A stretch of DNA of 64,000 bases from Candidatus Nitrotoga sp. CP45 (lineage in GTDB: Bacteria > Pseudomonadota > Gammaproteobacteria > Burkholderiales > Gallionellaceae), in contig QFXJ01000023.1 in assembly GCA_003402375.1 (NCBI GenBank), positions 1 through 64,000 on the forward strand, in the 5' to 3' direction. Below the pieces are notes generated by a model. The model had not been told where the DNA came from. It made no database searches and saw only the letters and a list, made by a program, of their open reading frames with translations. Position numbers and translations under genes: made by a program. Shown here in pieces: positions 14,706 through 23,643 of the stretch. Position 1 is the stretch's first letter, and the number at the start of each line of letters is the position of its first letter.

Positions 14706-15992
14706 TTAGCGCTGGGCAAGCGGTATAAAATCCCGCTGCGTCGCACCCTGATATAACTGACGTGGACGACCAATCTTACGCTCGCTGTCAGCAATCATTT
14801 CATTCCACTGCGACACCCAACCTATGGTGCGTGCCACAGCAAAGATTACTGTGAACATATTGCTCGGGATACCCAACGCACGCAGCACGATTCCGGAATA
14901 AAAGTCCACGTTGGGATACAGCTTGCGCTCTATGAAGTATTCGTCCCGCAGCGCAATCTGCTCAAGTTCTAGCGCCATTAAAAATAGTGGATCCTTCTCC
15001 AGCTTCAACTCTTCAAGCACCTCATAGCAAGTAGCGCGCATCACTTTTGCGCGCGGGTCCATGTTTTTGTATACCCGGTGGCCAAAGCCCATCAGACGGT
15101 ATTTTTTTTCCTTTACACCCTGTATAAAATCCGCCACGCGCGACACATCACCTATCTCTTCCAGCATCTTTAACACTGCCTCATTCGCACCGCCGTGCGC
15201 TGGCCCCCACAGTGCCGCAATACCAGAGGACACGCACGCGAATGGATTCGCCCCACTGGAACCGGCCAGCCGAACAGTCGAAGTCGAGGCGTTCTGTTCG
15301 TGATCAGCGTGCAGTATAAAAATACGCTCCAGTGCACGCACCAGTTTCTGGTTCGGCACATAGTCTTCTGCCGGAGTAGCGAACATCATGTACATGAAAT
15401 TTTCCACGTAGCTAAATTCATTCTTTGGGAACATAAATGGAAAACCGATGTAGTATTTATAGGTCATTGCGGCGATTGTCGGTACCTTGGCCAGCAGGCG
15501 TAACGCCGAAATTTCGCGATGTTCCTGGTTATTGATATCAAGCGAATCATGATAAAAAGCCGACAGCGCACCCACCACCCCAACCATTACCGCCATCGGA
15601 TGAGCGTCACGGCGGAAGCCGTTAAAAAAACGGGCAAGTTGATCATGCACCATGGTGTGCTGCATAACCTTTCCCTTGAACTCGCGTTTCTGTACTGCAT
15701 TCGGTAATTCCCCGTGCAGCAGCAAGTAGCACACCTCGAGGAAATTCGACTTTTCCGCCAGTTGTTCGATGGGATAACCGCGGTAATACAGTAATCCAGC
15801 GTCACCATCAATAAAAGTGATACTGGAAGAACAACTGGCGGTGGAGACGAAAGCCGGATCGTAAGTAAACATGCCGAGCTTACCCAATTCGCGGATGTCG
15901 ATCACATCAGGACCCAGAGTGCCAGACAATATCGGCAACTCGATACTACGGCCATCATCCAGCATCAGTGTTGCAACGCGTTTTTCTTTCAT
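14706..15992 (-). CDS. gltA: Citrate synthase (type II)
   Basis: A 428-residue enzyme that condenses oxaloacetate with acetyl-CoA. Features of the Gram-negative, NADH-sensitive type II family are the N-terminal strand-rich extension, the active-site region [11 protein letters not shown], the second catalytic His in [17 protein letters not shown], and the C-terminal [12 protein letters not shown] at 15992 is preceded by GAGG at good spacing. The gene sits 52 bases after sdhE and before odhA. Confidence 0.97.
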
Positions 15993-16044: not shown

Positions 16045-16281
16045 TCAAACTGCCTGAAGCAATTCAAGCACCGCACGCTGCTCATTTTGTAGCGACGAAG
16101 ACTGTGTGTCGGCAATCATATCCCAGAGTATCGGATCGGGCATATCCAGCAACCTATCAAATGCAACCTGCTGCGCCTTATTCAAACTTGCATAATGCTG
16201 CTCGATGAATCGGCCCAGCACGATGTCAAGTTCCAACAGGCCGCGTCGACAGCGCCAGCGCACGCGTTCCAATTCTTTCAT
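16045..16281 (-). CDS. sdhE: FAD assembly factor SdhE
   Basis: A 78-residue cytoplasmic protein that helps attach FAD covalently to SdhA. It shows the family signature RRGLLELD near residue 15 and the helical bundle typical of the YgfY/Sdh5 family. Its start codon overlaps the sdhB stop (ATGA at 16281-16278), indicating coupled translation with the enzyme it helps mature. Confidence 0.93.
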   Translation of the reverse strand: MKELERVRWRCRRGLLELDIVLGRFIEQHYASLNKAQQVAFDRLLDMPDPILWDMIADTQSSSLQNEQRAVLELLQAV

Positions 16282-16973
16282 ACTGCACGCTTCACCATTA
16301 ACGCTTTAATTTTTCCTATAGCTGCCGTAGGATTCAAACCTTTGGGGCATACATCCACACAATTCATAATAGTGTGGCATCGAAACAGCCGATACGGGTC
16401 TTCCAGATTATCTAGCCGCTCGCTCGTTGCCTGATCACGGCTATCAACGATAAAACGATAGGCTTGCAGTAAACCAGCGGGACCTACAAATTTATCCGGA
16501 TTCCACCAAAATGATGGGCAAGCAGTTGTACAACAGGCACACAAGATGCATTCATACAAACCATCCAGCTCGGCGCGCTGCGCTTGCGACTGTAAGCGCT
16601 CAGTTTCCGGAGGCGGGTCGTTATTCACCAAATAAGGCTTGATCGAATGGTACTGCTTGAAAAACTGTGTCATGTCCACGATTAGGTCACGTATAACTGG
16701 CAGGCCGGGCAACGGACGCAATTCAATTGGTTGTTTCAAACTGGACAGCTGCGTGATGCAAGCTAAGCCATTGCGCCCATTAATATTCATGGCATCCGAA
16801 CCGCACACTCCTTCGCGACAAGATTTGCGCAAGCTCAGACTGTCGTCCTGCTCCCTGATAAGAAGCAGTGCATCTAGCAACATCATATCGCCCGCTTCTA
16901 TGTCCAGCTCATAATTGCGCATATATGGCTGCTCATCAGTTTCAGGGTTATACCGGTAAATTTTGAATTGCAT
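16278..16973 (-). CDS. sdhB: Succinate dehydrogenase iron-sulfur subunit
   Basis: A 231-residue electron-transfer subunit linking SdhA flavin to the quinone site. The N-terminal ferredoxin domain holds the [2Fe-2S] cysteines in CREGVCGSD and the later NGLAC. The C-terminal domain carries CILCACCTTACP and CVDVCPKG for the [4Fe-4S] and [3Fe-4S] clusters. Length is normal. It is separated from sdhA by a DUF262 gene and decayed DNA (16974-18544), unlike the usual tight sdhA-sdhB junction; no obvious new promoter is seen before it. Confidence 0.97.
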   Translation of the reverse strand: MQFKIYRYNPETDEQPYMRNYELDIEAGDMMLLDALLLIREQDDSLSLRKSCREGVCGSDAMNINGRNGLACITQLSSLKQPIELRPLPGLPVIRDLIVDMTQFFKQYHSIKPYLVNNDPPPETERLQSQAQRAELDGLYECILCACCTTACPSFWWNPDKFVGPAGLLQAYRFIVDSRDQATSERLDNLEDPYRLFRCHTIMNCVDVCPKGLNPTAAIGKIKALMVKRAV

Positions 16974-17036
16974 AGTTCCATTCCTCTGCTAACCGCGTCG
17001 AGCCATTTACCTCCGCCATCCCCGCATCTCGTCCAA

Positions 17037-17198
17037 TCACACCTCAAAATAATTACGAGTCCGCAGCCTTTCTAACGACACTCCAACAAGGTACCCCCTA
17101 CCACTAGTTTGATTTAATGACAGAGCATACTTTACGTTAAAGCCAGCACTTTCAAAATCGTAATCATTTCCTGATACCTATTTTTCCAACCTACACAG
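17037..17198 (-). pseudogene. Decayed DUF1524/HNH remnant of a GmrSD-like gene
   Basis: Reading the minus strand in a shifted frame from 17198 gives LCRLEK, a stop, then NDYDFESAGFNVKYAL and more until a stop at 17037. In DUF262-DUF1524 proteins the helical region ends in a stretch of the type LEK...DYDFES followed by the HNH start IEHILP. Here that motif appears as VKYALS. It therefore looks like the continuation of the adjacent DUF262 gene, shifted in frame and degraded, with the nuclease motif lost. The identification is by pattern and should be tested by alignment. Confidence 0.55.
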
Positions 17199-18529
17199 CG
17201 GGAAGTAGTAGCGCTAATTTTTTTATCAGAAAATGCGCTACGAAATTCATCATCGCTAGGATAAATAAATTGCATGGCCTCCAATACAGCTGTCGCAGTG
17301 CTCATATCGCCACGTGAAATTTTTTGTGCCACCAAATAATAAATGCTCTCTTGTTTGTTCGTCGGCTGACTGCCAATTACAATGTAGCGAAACGCAATCG
17401 CTATACAATTACGCAGCACACGCTCAAAGTCACTGGCAGACAGCATTCGATGAGCCGCTAAAAGCAATGGAAAAGGCTGGCGCACTCTAAGCATATGCAA
17501 GTCCTGAATAGACTCCTTGAGATCCACAGGCCATTGTGATGACTCCACCTGGGTAAGCGCCAGATAGGTTTTTATATCCTCTTCCATACCCTGCAGCAGC
17601 TTGAAAACTTCTTCACGGCTTGTTACTTTGGAGAGTATGGTTTTAAAAAGTTCAGATTGCCTGACAAAAGTATGGCGGCTAATCCAGTGCACTAGTAAAA
17701 AATCGGGGAAACTCTCGCTACCCAAACAAATAACCATTGCTTCCCAGCGGTCTTCCAGAGTTTTCATTTCATGCAAATAATCCTTATTGCCATACAGAAC
17801 AGACAAGAGATGATTTTTCAGCAAATCCACTGAGGATAGCCGTATGCCACGTGCATTAAACATTTCAAATACTTTATAGGCATTAAGCTCATCAGTAACA
17901 CTGATCACCGTAAAAAATAGCCTGTCACTAATTGACTCCACCAGACTTGCCAGCGTTATTCCTTCGTCCCCGCCAGAATTTTTTGTATATTCATTTATTT
18001 TGATCGCAAACCATTCCAATGCTTTGCACAACCTGCGCTCAGATTCCTTACAGCCACTTTGCAATAAATAATCCAGTGGGATCAAATAATTTTGAAAATA
18101 AATATCGTTATTGCGATTGAGCGTGAGCTTGGTTTGTGACACCAACGTTACCGGATCAAGATAAGCAATATAGGTTTGACGAATTTGATTCATCCGTTGC
18201 TGATTAACCTCCGGATTACTTTTTTCTGCGATCAATTGCGTTAAATTCTTGAGTGCCGCTAAAATAATCAGCATGAGGGTCGTCAAGCGCTGCTGCCCTT
18301 CAATCACATCGAATATCCTGTTATCTTTCGATTGCAATACAAGGTAGCCCATATAGTGCGCTGGTTCGCCGTCGGCCTGAATCACCCCCATAATATCCGC
18401 CCACAAATCTCCCCATTCATTTTCCGTCCAGCTATAGTCCGGCTGAAAATGAGGAATACGGTAACTCAAGCCACCACTGATCAATTTGCGATAAGTATTA
18501 TTTTCCGTTTTAAAATTGGCTGCCGACAC
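17132..18529 (-). CDS. DUF262 (GmrS-like) protein, C-terminally truncated, inside the sdh operon
   Basis: A 465-residue protein with the DUF262/ParB-like N-terminal domain of GmrSD-type (type IV) restriction enzymes: FQPDYSW at the start and VIEGQQRLTTL near residue 75, the family's nucleotide-binding signature with Glu for the usual Asp. The helical middle region is present, but the reading frame leaves the family pattern near residue 435, just before the HNH nuclease (DUF1524) would begin, and ends at 17132. It starts 15 bases after sdhA, so it should be co-transcribed with the sdh genes. Base composition looks more AT-rich than its neighbours, suggesting acquisition. Without the HNH part a nuclease role is unlikely; it may be a decaying gene. 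Confidence 0.8.
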   Translation of the reverse strand: MSAANFKTENNTYRKLISGGLSYRIPHFQPDYSWTENEWGDLWADIMGVIQADGEPAHYMGYLVLQSKDNRIFDVIEGQQRLTTLMLIILAALKNLTQLIAEKSNPEVNQQRMNQIRQTYIAYLDPVTLVSQTKLTLNRNNDIYFQNYLIPLDYLLQSGCKESERRLCKALEWFAIKINEYTKNSGGDEGITLASLVESISDRLFFTVISVTDELNAYKVFEMFNARGIRLSSVDLLKNHLLSVLYGNKDYLHEMKTLEDRWEAMVICLGSESFPDFLLVHWISRHTFVRQSELFKTILSKVTSREEVFKLLQGMEEDIKTYLALTQVESSQWPVDLKESIQDLHMLRVRQPFPLLLAAHRMLSASDFERVLRNCIAIAFRYIVIGSQPTNKQESIYYLVAQKISRGDMSTATAVLEAMQFIYPSDDEFRSAFSDKKISATTSRCVGWKNRYQEMITILKVLALT

Positions 18530-18544
18530 GCTTCTATCTCCTGA

Positions 18545-20308
18545 TTAGTACACCCGCGCCTTAAGCGGAAATGATTCCACAGTCAACGGCTTCAGCCGAA
18601 CCGGCTTGTAATCCAGTTTTTGCCCTTCGCTAAAATACAGTGAATGCTTCAGCCAGTGGTCGTCGTCACGTTCCGGGAAATCATTACGCGCGTGGCCGCC
18701 ACGACTTTCTTGTCTCGCCGCGGCAGAAACCATGGTGGCTTGCGCTACTTCGATTAGATTATCAAGCTCCAATGCCTCCACGCATGCAGTATTAAACACC
18801 CTACTTTGATCATTAATCATGGTATTTTTAACGCGCTCGGCTACTGTGCGAATCTTTCCCACGCCTTGAGTCAGCAAATCAGGAAACCGAAATACACCAC
18901 AATGATTTTGCATCACGCGCCGCATTTCTGCTCCCACTTCGGCCACACTCTCACCATTTTTTTGTGACTTCAGCCTTGCAAGGCGCGCCAGCGGACGTTC
19001 AGCGGCATCGTGCGGCAATGGTTTTGGATGCGGATTACGCTGCAAGTCCTCGATAATCTGCCGCGCCACCTCACGCCCGAACACCAGCAAATCCAACAAT
19101 GAATTACAGCCCAGCCGGTTAGCGCCATGCACCGACACGCAAGCGCATTCACCCACCGCATAGAACCCCTGCACCACCTCTTCTGGCCCTGTTTTGTACG
19201 GGGCAACCACTTGTCCATGATAATTAGTGGGAATGCCACCCATCATATAATGCGCAGTGGGCACCACCGGAATGGGGTTCAGGGCCGGGTCAACATGCGC
19301 AAATTTTAGGGAAATCTCGCGGATACCGGGCAGGCGTTGGCGAATGACAGCATCACCAATGTGGTCAACTTTCAACAAAACATGATCGCCATGTTTGCCG
19401 CAACCGCGCCCTTCCTTGATCTCAGTGGCAATGGCGCGTGACACCACGTCGCGGCTGGCGAGATCTTGGGCGTTTGGCGCATAGCGCAACATAAAGCGCT
19501 CACCGTCTTTGTTGATGAGATAGCCGCCCTCCCCGCGTACACCTTCTGAAATCAGCACGCCCGCGCCGTATACGCCAGTAGGATGAAACTGAAAAAATTC
19601 CATGTCCTCCAGCGGAATGCCGGCACGGGCTGCCATGCCAAGGCCGTCACCGGTATTAATGTAAGCATTAGTGCTGGCCTGAAAAATGCGCGCTGCCCCC
19701 CCGGTGGCAAACAGCGTGGCACGTGCCTGCAAAATCATCACTTCACTGGTTTCAATTTCCATTGCCACCACGCCAAGCACATCCCCATCTTCGTCGCGGA
19801 TTAAATCCAGAGCCATCCACTCCACGAAAAAAATGGTATTGGACTGCATGTTTTTTTGATACAGCGTATGCAACAAGGCATGGCCAGTTCGATCAGCGGC
19901 GGCACAGGCGCGCTGCACCGGGGTCTTGCCATAGTCTTGCATGTGGCCGCCGAATGAGCGCTGATAAATTTTACCATTTTCCAAACGATCGAATGGCATG
20001 CCGAAGTGTTCCAGTTCGTACACCACTTCCGGCGCGGCGCGACACATGAATTCAATGGCATCTTGATCGCCCAGATAATCCGAACCTTTCACCGTGTCGT
20101 ACATATGCCAATGCCAATTGTCCTCGCTGATATTACCCAACGATGCCGCAATACCGCCTTGGGCCGCTACCGTGTGCGAGCGTGTGGGAAAAACCTTGGA
20201 CAATACCGCCACCTTCAAACCGGCCTCAGACAATGCCAGAGCCGCACGCATCCCCGCGCCACCCGCCCCCACGATTACAACGTCAAATGTGCGTTTCGCC
20301 ACTGCCAT
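18545..20308 (-). CDS. sdhA: Succinate dehydrogenase flavoprotein subunit
   Basis: A 587-residue subunit that oxidises succinate to fumarate. It has the N-terminal FAD fingerprint [10 protein letters not shown], the covalent-FAD histidine in the [11 protein letters not shown] stretch, and the substrate-site motif HPTGVYGAG with a later [14 protein letters not shown]. The ATG at 20308 overlaps the sdhD stop (TGATG) and has GGGGAA upstream; an upstream in-frame ATG at 20338 would lie within sdhD and lacks support. Its stop is followed after 15 bases by the DUF262 gene instead of sdhB. Confidence 0.97.
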
Positions 20309-20679
20309 CACATTCCCCACAAAATTTGTACTGCCCACATCGAATACAGCAACAGCGCCATGATCACCAATACATAGATAACCAGGCGTATTCTTGCCGA
20401 TTTGACATAATCCATGACTATGTCACGCACACCAATCCATGCGTGGTAAAAAACGGCAAACAGAAACAGTAATGAGAACGAACGCATCACCAAATTCGAA
20501 AACAACCCCGTCCAGGTGTTGTAATCAAGACCAATCCAAGCATTGCTTTCAAAACGGGAATGCAGCAGCACATAGCCCGCAATAAACAACGTATAAGCCA
20601 CCATCAAAACAGCGGTAACACGCTGCACCAGCCAATCCCGCAATCCATAATGCGCGCCGGTTACGATGCGATCTACCAT
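20308..20679 (-). CDS. sdhD: Succinate dehydrogenase membrane anchor subunit
   Basis: A 123-residue membrane protein with three predicted transmembrane helices that, with SdhC, binds heme b and ubiquinone. It begins [16 protein letters not shown], the usual beta/gammaproteobacterial start. AGGAG lies seven bases before this ATG, while an ATG six bases upstream is too close to the site. The conserved heme-ligand His lies in the [11 protein letters not shown] stretch. It overlaps sdhC by a few bases and sdhA by one. Confidence 0.93.
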
Positions 20680-21047
20680 AGCCATGCTCCTATTAGCAAG
20701 GTTAAGCCGATACTCACGAACAACACCCACTTGCTGCTGGCACGTGCCTGCGCTAGCCCTACTCCAATATGCATATCTATCGCGAGATAGCGTATTCCAG
20801 CGCAAAGGTGGTGTAAAAATGCCCACAGCAGGCTAATTAAAATTAATTTACTCAAAGGATGCCGTAGCGTAGCGGCCAATTGAGTATATGTCTCGATAGA
20901 AAACAGGCTGCACTGCAACATCCTCAAAAACAACGGCAAAACTAAAAACAACAATAACCCGCTTGCACGATGCAAAATAGATACAAAGCCCGGCAAGGGC
21001 AGTTTGATCAAACGCAAGTCAAGATGTATAGGACGATTTTTATTCAT
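20673..21047 (-). CDS. sdhC: Succinate dehydrogenase cytochrome b556 subunit
   Basis: A 124-residue membrane anchor with three hydrophobic helices. It begins MNKNRPIHLDL and carries the family motif LPGFVSILHRASG, where Ser and Arg line the quinone site; the second signature, HLCAGIRYLAID, supplies the heme-ligand His. I start at ATG 21047, which gives the family length; longer in-frame starts add unrelated residues. First gene of the sdh-gltA-odh operon, with a plausible promoter 40-70 bases upstream. Confidence 0.93.
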   Translation of the reverse strand: MNKNRPIHLDLRLIKLPLPGFVSILHRASGLLLFLVLPLFLRMLQCSLFSIETYTQLAATLRHPLSKLILISLLWAFLHHLCAGIRYLAIDMHIGVGLAQARASSKWVLFVSIGLTLLIGAWLW

Positions 21048-21087
21048 TGGCGCACACGAAGTGGAGTAATAAACCAACGTTTGTAAT

Positions 21088-21116
21088 TTTACACATGATG
21101 GGTAATGAATTATCAA
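21088..21116 (-). promoter_or_regulatory. Sigma-70 type promoter of the sdh operon
   Basis: On the minus strand TTGATA (21116-21111) and TGTAAA (21093-21088) are separated by exactly 17 bases. The implied start of transcription is about 35 bases upstream of sdhC. Five and four of six positions match consensus. Confidence 0.5.
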
Positions 21117-22668: not shown

Positions 22669-23643
22669 CTATGCTGGCTTGGTGTAGCGCATCTCCACCC
22701 CGAATAATACTTCATGCGGTGATCTGAAACCCAGCACTTTGCGTGGCCGGTGGTTGAGTCGTTCTACCGCTCGCTGCACTTGCTCCTCGGTAACGTCAAT
22801 CAACTCCATACCTTTGGGGAAGTACTGCCGGATTAGCCCATTACTGTTCTCGTTCAGACCTCGCTCCCAGGAACGGTAGGGGTGCGCGAAATAGATCGCA
22901 GCCTGAAGTTCTGCTGCGATGCTTTCATGCCCTGCAAACTCTTTGCCGTTATCGAATGTAATGGTGTGGCATTTGTCCTTATGGGGACTCAGCAAACTCG
23001 TTGTCACAGCCGTTACACCCTCGGCATGTTTGCTGCGTATGTGCCCCGCCAACACATAGCGCGACTTCCTTTAAGCCAGTGTAACCAGCCCACCTTTGTG
23101 ATTCTTGCCGATAACGGTATCACCCTCCCAATCACCCATACGCGTCTTTTGATCAACGATTGCCGGACGTTCATCAATACTGACACGGTTCTTGATAATG
23201 CCTCGCCGTTCTTGCCCACTTGCATATCGCTTACGGCGTGGTTTCTGGCAACGCAAATGCTGGTACAGGTCACTTCCATCCCGTTTGTCTGCATAGACAT
23301 GCCGGTAAATCGCCTCATGGCTGATCTGCAATTCGCCTTCCAGCTCAAGCTGACTGGCGGCTTGTTCTAGGCTGAGGTCTTCCCGGATCAACCTCTCGAC
23401 TTCCGCCCAGCTATCCGATGAGAATTGCTTGTCATTGATACAGGCTTGCTTGCGCTCATCACGTAACAATTGCGCCTGTTTTGGCCGCCAGCCGCGTTGA
23501 TCTTTGTTTCGCCTAAACTCTCGTGAAATCGTCGATTTGTCCACGCCCATCTTTTGGGCAATCCGAGTTTGATTCAAACCCGCTTGTTTCAATCCGTAAA
23601 TCTGATATCGTTGCCCGCTGGTGAGCTGCTTATATTTCTTCAT
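22669..23643 (-). pseudogene. IS30-family transposase with an in-frame stop
   Basis: Read from ATG at 23643 on the minus strand the frame gives a 324-residue IS30-type transposase. The N-terminal helix-turn-helix (QRYQIYGLKQAGLNQTRIA) and a second one are followed by the DDE catalytic core (MGDWEGDTVIG, TFDNGKEF, HPYRSWERGLNENSNG). At 23073-23071 a single TAA replaces the Glu expected in the family stretch VTLxERKSR; both sides are in the same frame and otherwise intact, so one substitution explains the break. The first Asp is on the N-terminal part and the second Asp and Glu on the C-terminal part, so neither fragment could be active alone. Confidence 0.9.

Follow-up and report, generated by a model that had tools for sequence, protein, structure and literature searches.

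The genes sdhA and sdhB of Candidatus Nitrotoga sp. CP45 enclose a DUF262 frame. The three genes lie in the order sdhA, DUF262 frame, sdhB on the minus strand of the window, the whole stretch of 64,000 nucleotides analysed here (16278..20338, ORF list). A preliminary description of this DNA had placed a GmrS-like gene between sdhA and sdhB, 15 bases after sdhA. Open reading frames and a Pfam match (E 1.1e-30) confirmed the placement. The 15-nt gap between sdhA and the DUF262 gene contains an AGGAG, and the stop codon of the DUF262 gene is separated from sdhB by 158 nt. The locus comprises the following features.

18545..20338, minus strand: sdhA (ORF and Pfam support)
18538..18542, minus strand: AGGAG, likely ribosome-binding site (sequence; other carriers have a similar stretch)
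17132..18529, minus strand: DUF262/GmrS-like coding sequence, 465 aa, GTG start, without nuclease domain (ORF, Pfam, PADLOC)
18440..18442, minus strand: codon 30, Pro replacing the Arg of FQRDY (QR pair) (alignment)
18299..18301, minus strand: codon 77, Glu replacing the Asp of DGQQR (alignment)
17135..17203, minus strand: new tail, codons 443-465, out of the ancestral frame and conserved in the new frame (tblastn, codon positions)
16974..17131, minus strand: decayed HNH (DUF1524-type) nuclease remnant, non-coding spacer before sdhB (tblastn, gaps)
16278..16973, minus strand: sdhB (ORF and Pfam support)

An sdhC-like ORF lies upstream of sdhA (20673..21116, minus strand) and an sdhE-like ORF downstream of sdhB (16045..16281, minus strand). 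A downstream gene on the same strand (14706..15992), which we take to be gltA for citrate synthase, served as control gene in the dN/dS analysis. Upstream of the sdh operon lies an apparently broken transposase, spread over frames of 190 aa and 128 aa (22669-23643, minus strand) and assumed to be IS30-like.

The 465-aa protein, hereafter the resident, matches GmrSD_N (PF03235) with residues 15-242, and Pfam returned no match to a C-terminal nuclease domain. The PADLOC profile HEC-06 (Orf5, 569 positions) aligned only with residues 1-443, at profile positions 1-443 (E 7.3e-163). The C-terminal fifth of the DUF262-HNH family is absent from the resident frame. An NCBIfam search of the 465-aa protein yielded no family. 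A scan for promoter-like and terminator-like sites found 3 and 5, respectively, against shuffle means of 8.9 and 6.2, hence no excess. Together with the common strand, the 15-nt gap and the likely ribosome-binding site, this makes co-transcription of the DUF262 gene with sdh plausible.

Distribution in Nitrotoga and the sdhA-sdhB junction

The DUF262 gene is intact between sdhA and sdhB in 10 of 19 Nitrotoga genomes, the window's included, and encodes exactly 465 aa in each. The same gene at the same place in congeners indicates that its placement in the window is not due to chance. In genome G013 it is split over two contig ends. These ends (L011 and L026) overlap at residues 231-341 with differing sequences, as if two strains had been mixed in the bin. 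Two further copies are broken: in G007 the gene is cut to 138 matched residues, followed by a deletion, and in G012 it carries at least six stops. Both genomes have retained intact sdhA and sdhB, and the two losses mark the DUF262 gene as dispensable. The check for an uninterrupted sdhA-sdhB pair, proposed in the preliminary description, succeeded with G004 and G016. In both, a single contig carries the two sdh genes without the DUF262 gene, at gaps of 360 and 229 nt, respectively. Four genomes without a match (G002, G003, G010, G011) cannot be judged, their sdhA and sdhB being on separate contigs or not both found.

A tree of sdhA, sdhB and gltA from 15 Nitrotoga genomes and one outgroup, with these four left out, unites the 13 carriers of a whole or broken copy in one clade (support 100). 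G004 and then G016 branch outside. Within the clade, G012 is sister to G001 (support 100), and G007 is placed among G005, G006 and G015. Single-gene trees differ among themselves and from the three-gene tree; G005, G006 and G015 are together in three of the four, as are G014 and G018. The distribution of carriers appears best explained by a single gain and two losses.

Outside Nitrotoga, the end of sdhA and the start of sdhB were found on one contig in at least 102 genomes of the family (G021 not counted). The gap between them exceeds 300 nt in at least 19 and is no longer than 150 nt in at least 82 of these genomes. Seventeen of the 19 listed long gaps were read (rows L071-L087, from other genera of the family), with G105:C78 (4344 nt) and G182:C16 (468 nt) outside the reading; the reading of junction contents took 19 gaps, L088 being left out. 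Seven of the encoded proteins were run against Pfam, one of them without a match, and the others were named by likeness. The gaps contain a PDDEXK_3 gene (G054, G039, G055, G121), a CHASE3-GGDEF gene (G181, G019, G139), a DUF3617-type gene (G126, G142, G113, G059), a NERD gene (G168, G153), an IS200-like transposase (G155), a three-gene insert with a peptidase S11 (G146, G043) or frames of other kinds. The sdhA-sdhB junction of this family thus appears to be a site of varied gene gain. Genes have entered it repeatedly, so that the position of the resident says little for a link to succinate dehydrogenase.

In three loci, L037 (G011), L045 (G030) and L047 (G021), no sdhA was present within 1.5 kb upstream of sdhB. 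G021 and G030 have both genes far apart on one contig (23 kb in G021), the operon being split or heavily interrupted.

Loss of the nuclease and replacement of motif residues

Full-length relatives were collected in one scan of genome contigs. The best 80 of 268 matches were kept and comprise 5 Nitrotoga rows and 75 others, of which the closest are 70% identical. Among these 75 relatives from outside the genus, 73 have 556-581 aa. FQRDY is kept in 74, DGQQR likewise in 74, and the nuclease motif EH(V/I)LP is in frame in 72. The misses are L169, whose frame ends after 31 residues, L152, with one unidentified residue and an early end, and L157. The five Nitrotoga rows, flanked by sdhA and sdhB, all have 465 aa, EGQQR and Pro for Arg. 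None of the 75 others has sdhB nearby within the available DNA, up to 4 kb per side; L163 gave a weak match to the sdhA query (31% identity). Of the 75, many of them on short contigs, 26 have as a neighbour a relative of a DrmD-type helicase (19), of a type-III-like methyltransferase (22) or of a IIG enzyme, and these neighbours suggest an ancestor of the defence type. The Nitrotoga gene descends from a DUF262-HNH enzyme of about 571 aa, probably of this type. Phage and plasmid searches returned 5 and 94 records matching the DUF262 protein, respectively. All are below 60% identity and give no pointer to a recent vehicle. In a tree without L169, the residents fall together with 12 sequences, of which 9 carry methanotroph titles. 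This grouping has a support of just 0.70, so no donor lineage is claimed.

The missing nuclease has left a trace. Searched with the tails of full-length relatives (tblastn), the DNA from about codon 435-442 onwards shows, in a different frame, the linker and nuclease of the ancestor; the best E values are 1.7e-11 for G009 and 5e-9 for the window. The ancestral frame contains a stop within the matched stretch in 6 of 11 copies examined, the window's among them. In G009 it stays open over some distance, overlapping with the new tail. Further on, the remnant has many indels and an altered nuclease motif. The spacer past the stop measures 312-344 nt in eight genomes, a size comparable to the missing tail, and is 158 nt in the window and 157 nt in G017. 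Between species, the spacers of the eight genomes are 72% identical with 86 gap runs, 78 of which are not multiples of 3. The 465-aa gene is 86% identical in the same comparison, with zero gaps. The preliminary description had spoken of a decayed tail running up to sdhB; this holds for the remnant past the stop, whereas the 465-aa frame shows no decay. No trace of an earlier copy was seen in the spacers of G004 and G016, where the best match to the nuclease tail (tblastn, E 4.2) is not meaningful.

The nuclease is gone in every carrier read. In a search for the DUF1524 family PF07510 alone, a partner in trans is not general in the genus: only G004 and G005 among 16 Nitrotoga genomes had a match above the cut-off, and the match in G005 sits within a separate DUF262 gene. 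The window's own genome has a sub-threshold PF07510 match only, inside an 805-aa frame.

Motifs were compared between nine of the ten intact residents (G017 left out) and 32 chosen full-length relatives. Up to residue 444, the relatives share 134 invariant positions, 94 of which are unchanged in the nine residents. Arg30 is replaced by Pro and Asp77 by Glu in all nine residents, while all 32 relatives have Arg and Asp. The QR pair accordingly reads QP or HP, and DGQQR reads EGQQR with the Arg of the motif retained. Gly18, Gly122, Arg168, Tyr240, Asp320, Pro328, Phe347 and Asn383, likewise invariant in the relatives, are also altered in all nine. Every Nitrotoga copy that covers these positions (12, the G007 stump among them) has Pro30 and EGQQR; G012 is too broken for this comparison. 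In the FxxxN motif, F221 and N225 are retained in 11 of 11 copies spanning it.

GmrS proteins are reported to have a QR pair, FxxxN, and DGQQR, the last 'in nearly 100 %' of sequences (PMC4619093). The DGQQR aspartate of BrxU was modelled at the gamma-phosphate, and alanine mutants of BrxU Q35 and R38 were still phage-resistant (PMC8565348). The Arg of the motif is required for hydrolysis in DndI (PMC11662687) and in SspE (PMC13251355). Judged from the replaced residues, the resident probably hydrolyses NTPs less well or no longer. It may still bind nucleotides to some extent, because Asp to Glu is conservative at residue 77 and the motif Arg is kept. Nucleotide-dependent sensing, put forward in the preliminary description, is doubtful with both Asp77 and Arg30 changed in all nine residents, though the motif Arg is kept.

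In the AlphaFold2 model of the full-length relative L096, the nuclease occupies about residues 472-564 after a linker helix (443-461). The resident model (mean pLDDT 75) has the domain and helices of L096 up to residues 426-435, after which pLDDT falls below 50; confidence in the modelled tail is low. Comparison of the modelled nuclease start with the resident's end suggests a cut at a domain boundary. DndI was the nearest solved fold (9jfl, E 3.4e-11, TM 0.65 by query length), followed by SspE, and 9jfl was also matched by sequence (E 1.1e-16). Both are phosphorothioate-sensing DUF262-HNH nickases, in which the Arg of DGQQR and the HNH Asn are needed for defence (PMC11662687, PMC13251355); in the resident the HNH domain is missing and the motif Asp is replaced by Glu. 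With GmrSD type IV restriction enzymes (DUF262 and DUF1524) it shares DUF262, FxxxN and the helical region that follows. It differs from them by the absent nuclease domain, by EGQQR for DGQQR and QP or HP for QR, and by its location in a core metabolic operon. Single-domain GmrS homologues that have DUF262 but lack DUF1524 are already known (PMC4619093). The resident differs from these in that its nuclease loss by frameshift has a place on a tree and its new tail is under selection.

Selection on the shortened gene and its possible role

The ten intact DUF262 genes have a median dN/dS of 0.147 at a median dS of 0.485 (45 pairs; pairwise counts, G013 left out). The preliminary description had called for such an analysis of the DUF262 frame, and purifying selection is what it revealed. 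For the same genomes, dS and dN/dS are 0.458 and 0.027 in sdhA, 0.507 and 0.018 in sdhB, and 0.406 and 0.046 in gltA. The dS of the DUF262 gene equals that of the sdh genes, which points to vertical descent together with the operon. Regional dN/dS is 0.163 for codons 2-242, 0.161 for codons 243-442 and 0.092 for codons 443-465. Of the 35 changes inferred for this last region, 27 are at third codon positions in the new frame (p 1.4e-7 versus one third), so the frameshift-born tail of 23 residues is itself maintained as protein. Third positions account for 526 of 859 changes in codons 2-436 and for 723 of 840 in sdhA. Full-length relatives have a median dN/dS of 0.071 in 12 control pairs, which are not all independent (pS 0.1-0.5 among 31 chosen full-length loci). 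The resident value is about twice as high and indicates looser constraint than in a working enzyme.

By its place, its length in 10 of 19 genomes and the selection on it, the resident can be regarded as an established member of the sdh operon. Loss of the nuclease in all carriers read and selection on the remainder support the earlier proposal of a retained non-nuclease role. A probable reading is that the resident derives from a DUF262-HNH defence enzyme, has lost the nuclease and become domesticated, and now has a binding role. Its history is recorded in the sequence. Sequence comparison shows the gene between sdhA and sdhB in one Nitrotoga clade, best explained by a single gain of a full-length gene of about 571 aa. 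Before the carriers split, a frameshift at about codons 435-442 removed the nuclease and left the new tail instead, and two GmrS motifs lost their Arg30 and Asp77. Purifying selection has acted on the 465-aa protein, tail included, ever since, and two lineages lost the gene later. According to the reading, the protein would be translated from the sdh mRNA and fold as DUF262 plus helical module. It would not cut DNA, and its NTP hydrolysis would probably be poor or nil. It may hence act by binding a nucleotide, DNA or a protein partner, with control of mobile DNA still its most likely field and the sdh promoter giving steady expression. This final step, i.e. which ligand and which process, is the weakest of the explanation and is offered tentatively, as one possibility. 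A former restriction enzyme that serves as a non-cutting DNA- or partner-binding regulator from the sdh operon, tied to the respiratory state of the nitrite oxidiser, is conceivable but unlikely.

In the literature examined, DUF262 proteins have been studied as nucleases of phage defence. The sequences of one Nitrotoga lineage record how the nuclease was lost, the nucleotide motifs changed and a new tail arose while selection went on. Natural comparisons exist in the two losses (G007, G012) and in sister lineages that lack the gene (G004, G016), which makes the role of DUF262 without nuclease a directly testable question. No paper on this Nitrotoga gene was found by title or abstract among the matches listed, and a search for Nitrotoga together with DUF262 found none. 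The Nitrotoga fabula genome paper names a four-subunit succinate dehydrogenase, and the term 'restriction' was not found in the portion of that text at hand (PMC6050957).

Among the alternatives to a domesticated binding protein, interference with incoming enzymes fares best, although it is rather improbable. The truncated protein would mix with full-length DUF262-HNH enzymes and disable them, as anti-restriction or as protection from self-cutting. Oligomers are reported for related enzymes: DndI forms a homodimer in the crystal (PMC11662687), BrxU an intertwined dimer (PMC8565348) and SspE a tetramer (PMC13251355). The predicted cut at a domain boundary would suit such a function, and a DUF262/DUF1524 gene has been hypothesised behind a plasmid cost in Pseudomonas (PMC11637435). 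However, the carriers have no other relative above 38% identity besides the resident, some having distant DUF262 frames, and a long match to the DrmD-type helicase that neighbours some full-length relatives elsewhere was obtained in G017 only among 10 carriers searched. Another DUF262 frame of G017 (572 aa) lies about 9 kb from a DrmD-type helicase relative (58%; G017:C6:140124-152389).

A present function of the resident in assembly or regulation of succinate dehydrogenase is less probable still. Its position between sdhA and sdhB is fixed in the carriers, but G007 and G012 lost the gene with sdhA and sdhB intact. Other genera have unrelated genes at this junction, so that little can be concluded from position alone.

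Two further readings are both highly improbable, being contradicted by the missense constraint. The first, already considered in the preliminary description, regards the gene as a passenger, a stranded defence gene in slow decay. The lost nuclease, the decayed remnant, the broken copies in G007 and G012 and a dN/dS above the full-length controls would agree with it. They are opposed by ten genomes with exactly 465 aa at the same place, the pattern that the preliminary description had itself named as refuting an accident, by the low median dN/dS and by a third-position bias even in the new tail. Moreover, all ten frames stayed open in none of 300 neutral simulations (substitutions only; mean 0.03 of ten open), and G012 with its stops shows how decay looks in the same genus. 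The second assumes that any translated frame would be retained, just to prevent polar termination before sdhB. It suits the same strand, the 15-nt gap and the likely ribosome-binding site. Such a frame would be preserved in its openness, not in its amino acids, but the changes in codons 2-436 favour third positions, and G007 and G012 lost the frame with sdhB intact.

A programmed frameshift, by which ribosomes would still produce some full-length nuclease, finds an argument in the open overlap in G009 and is of negligible probability given the ancestral-frame stops in 6 of 11 copies, including the window, and the indel-filled remnant further on with its altered nuclease motif.
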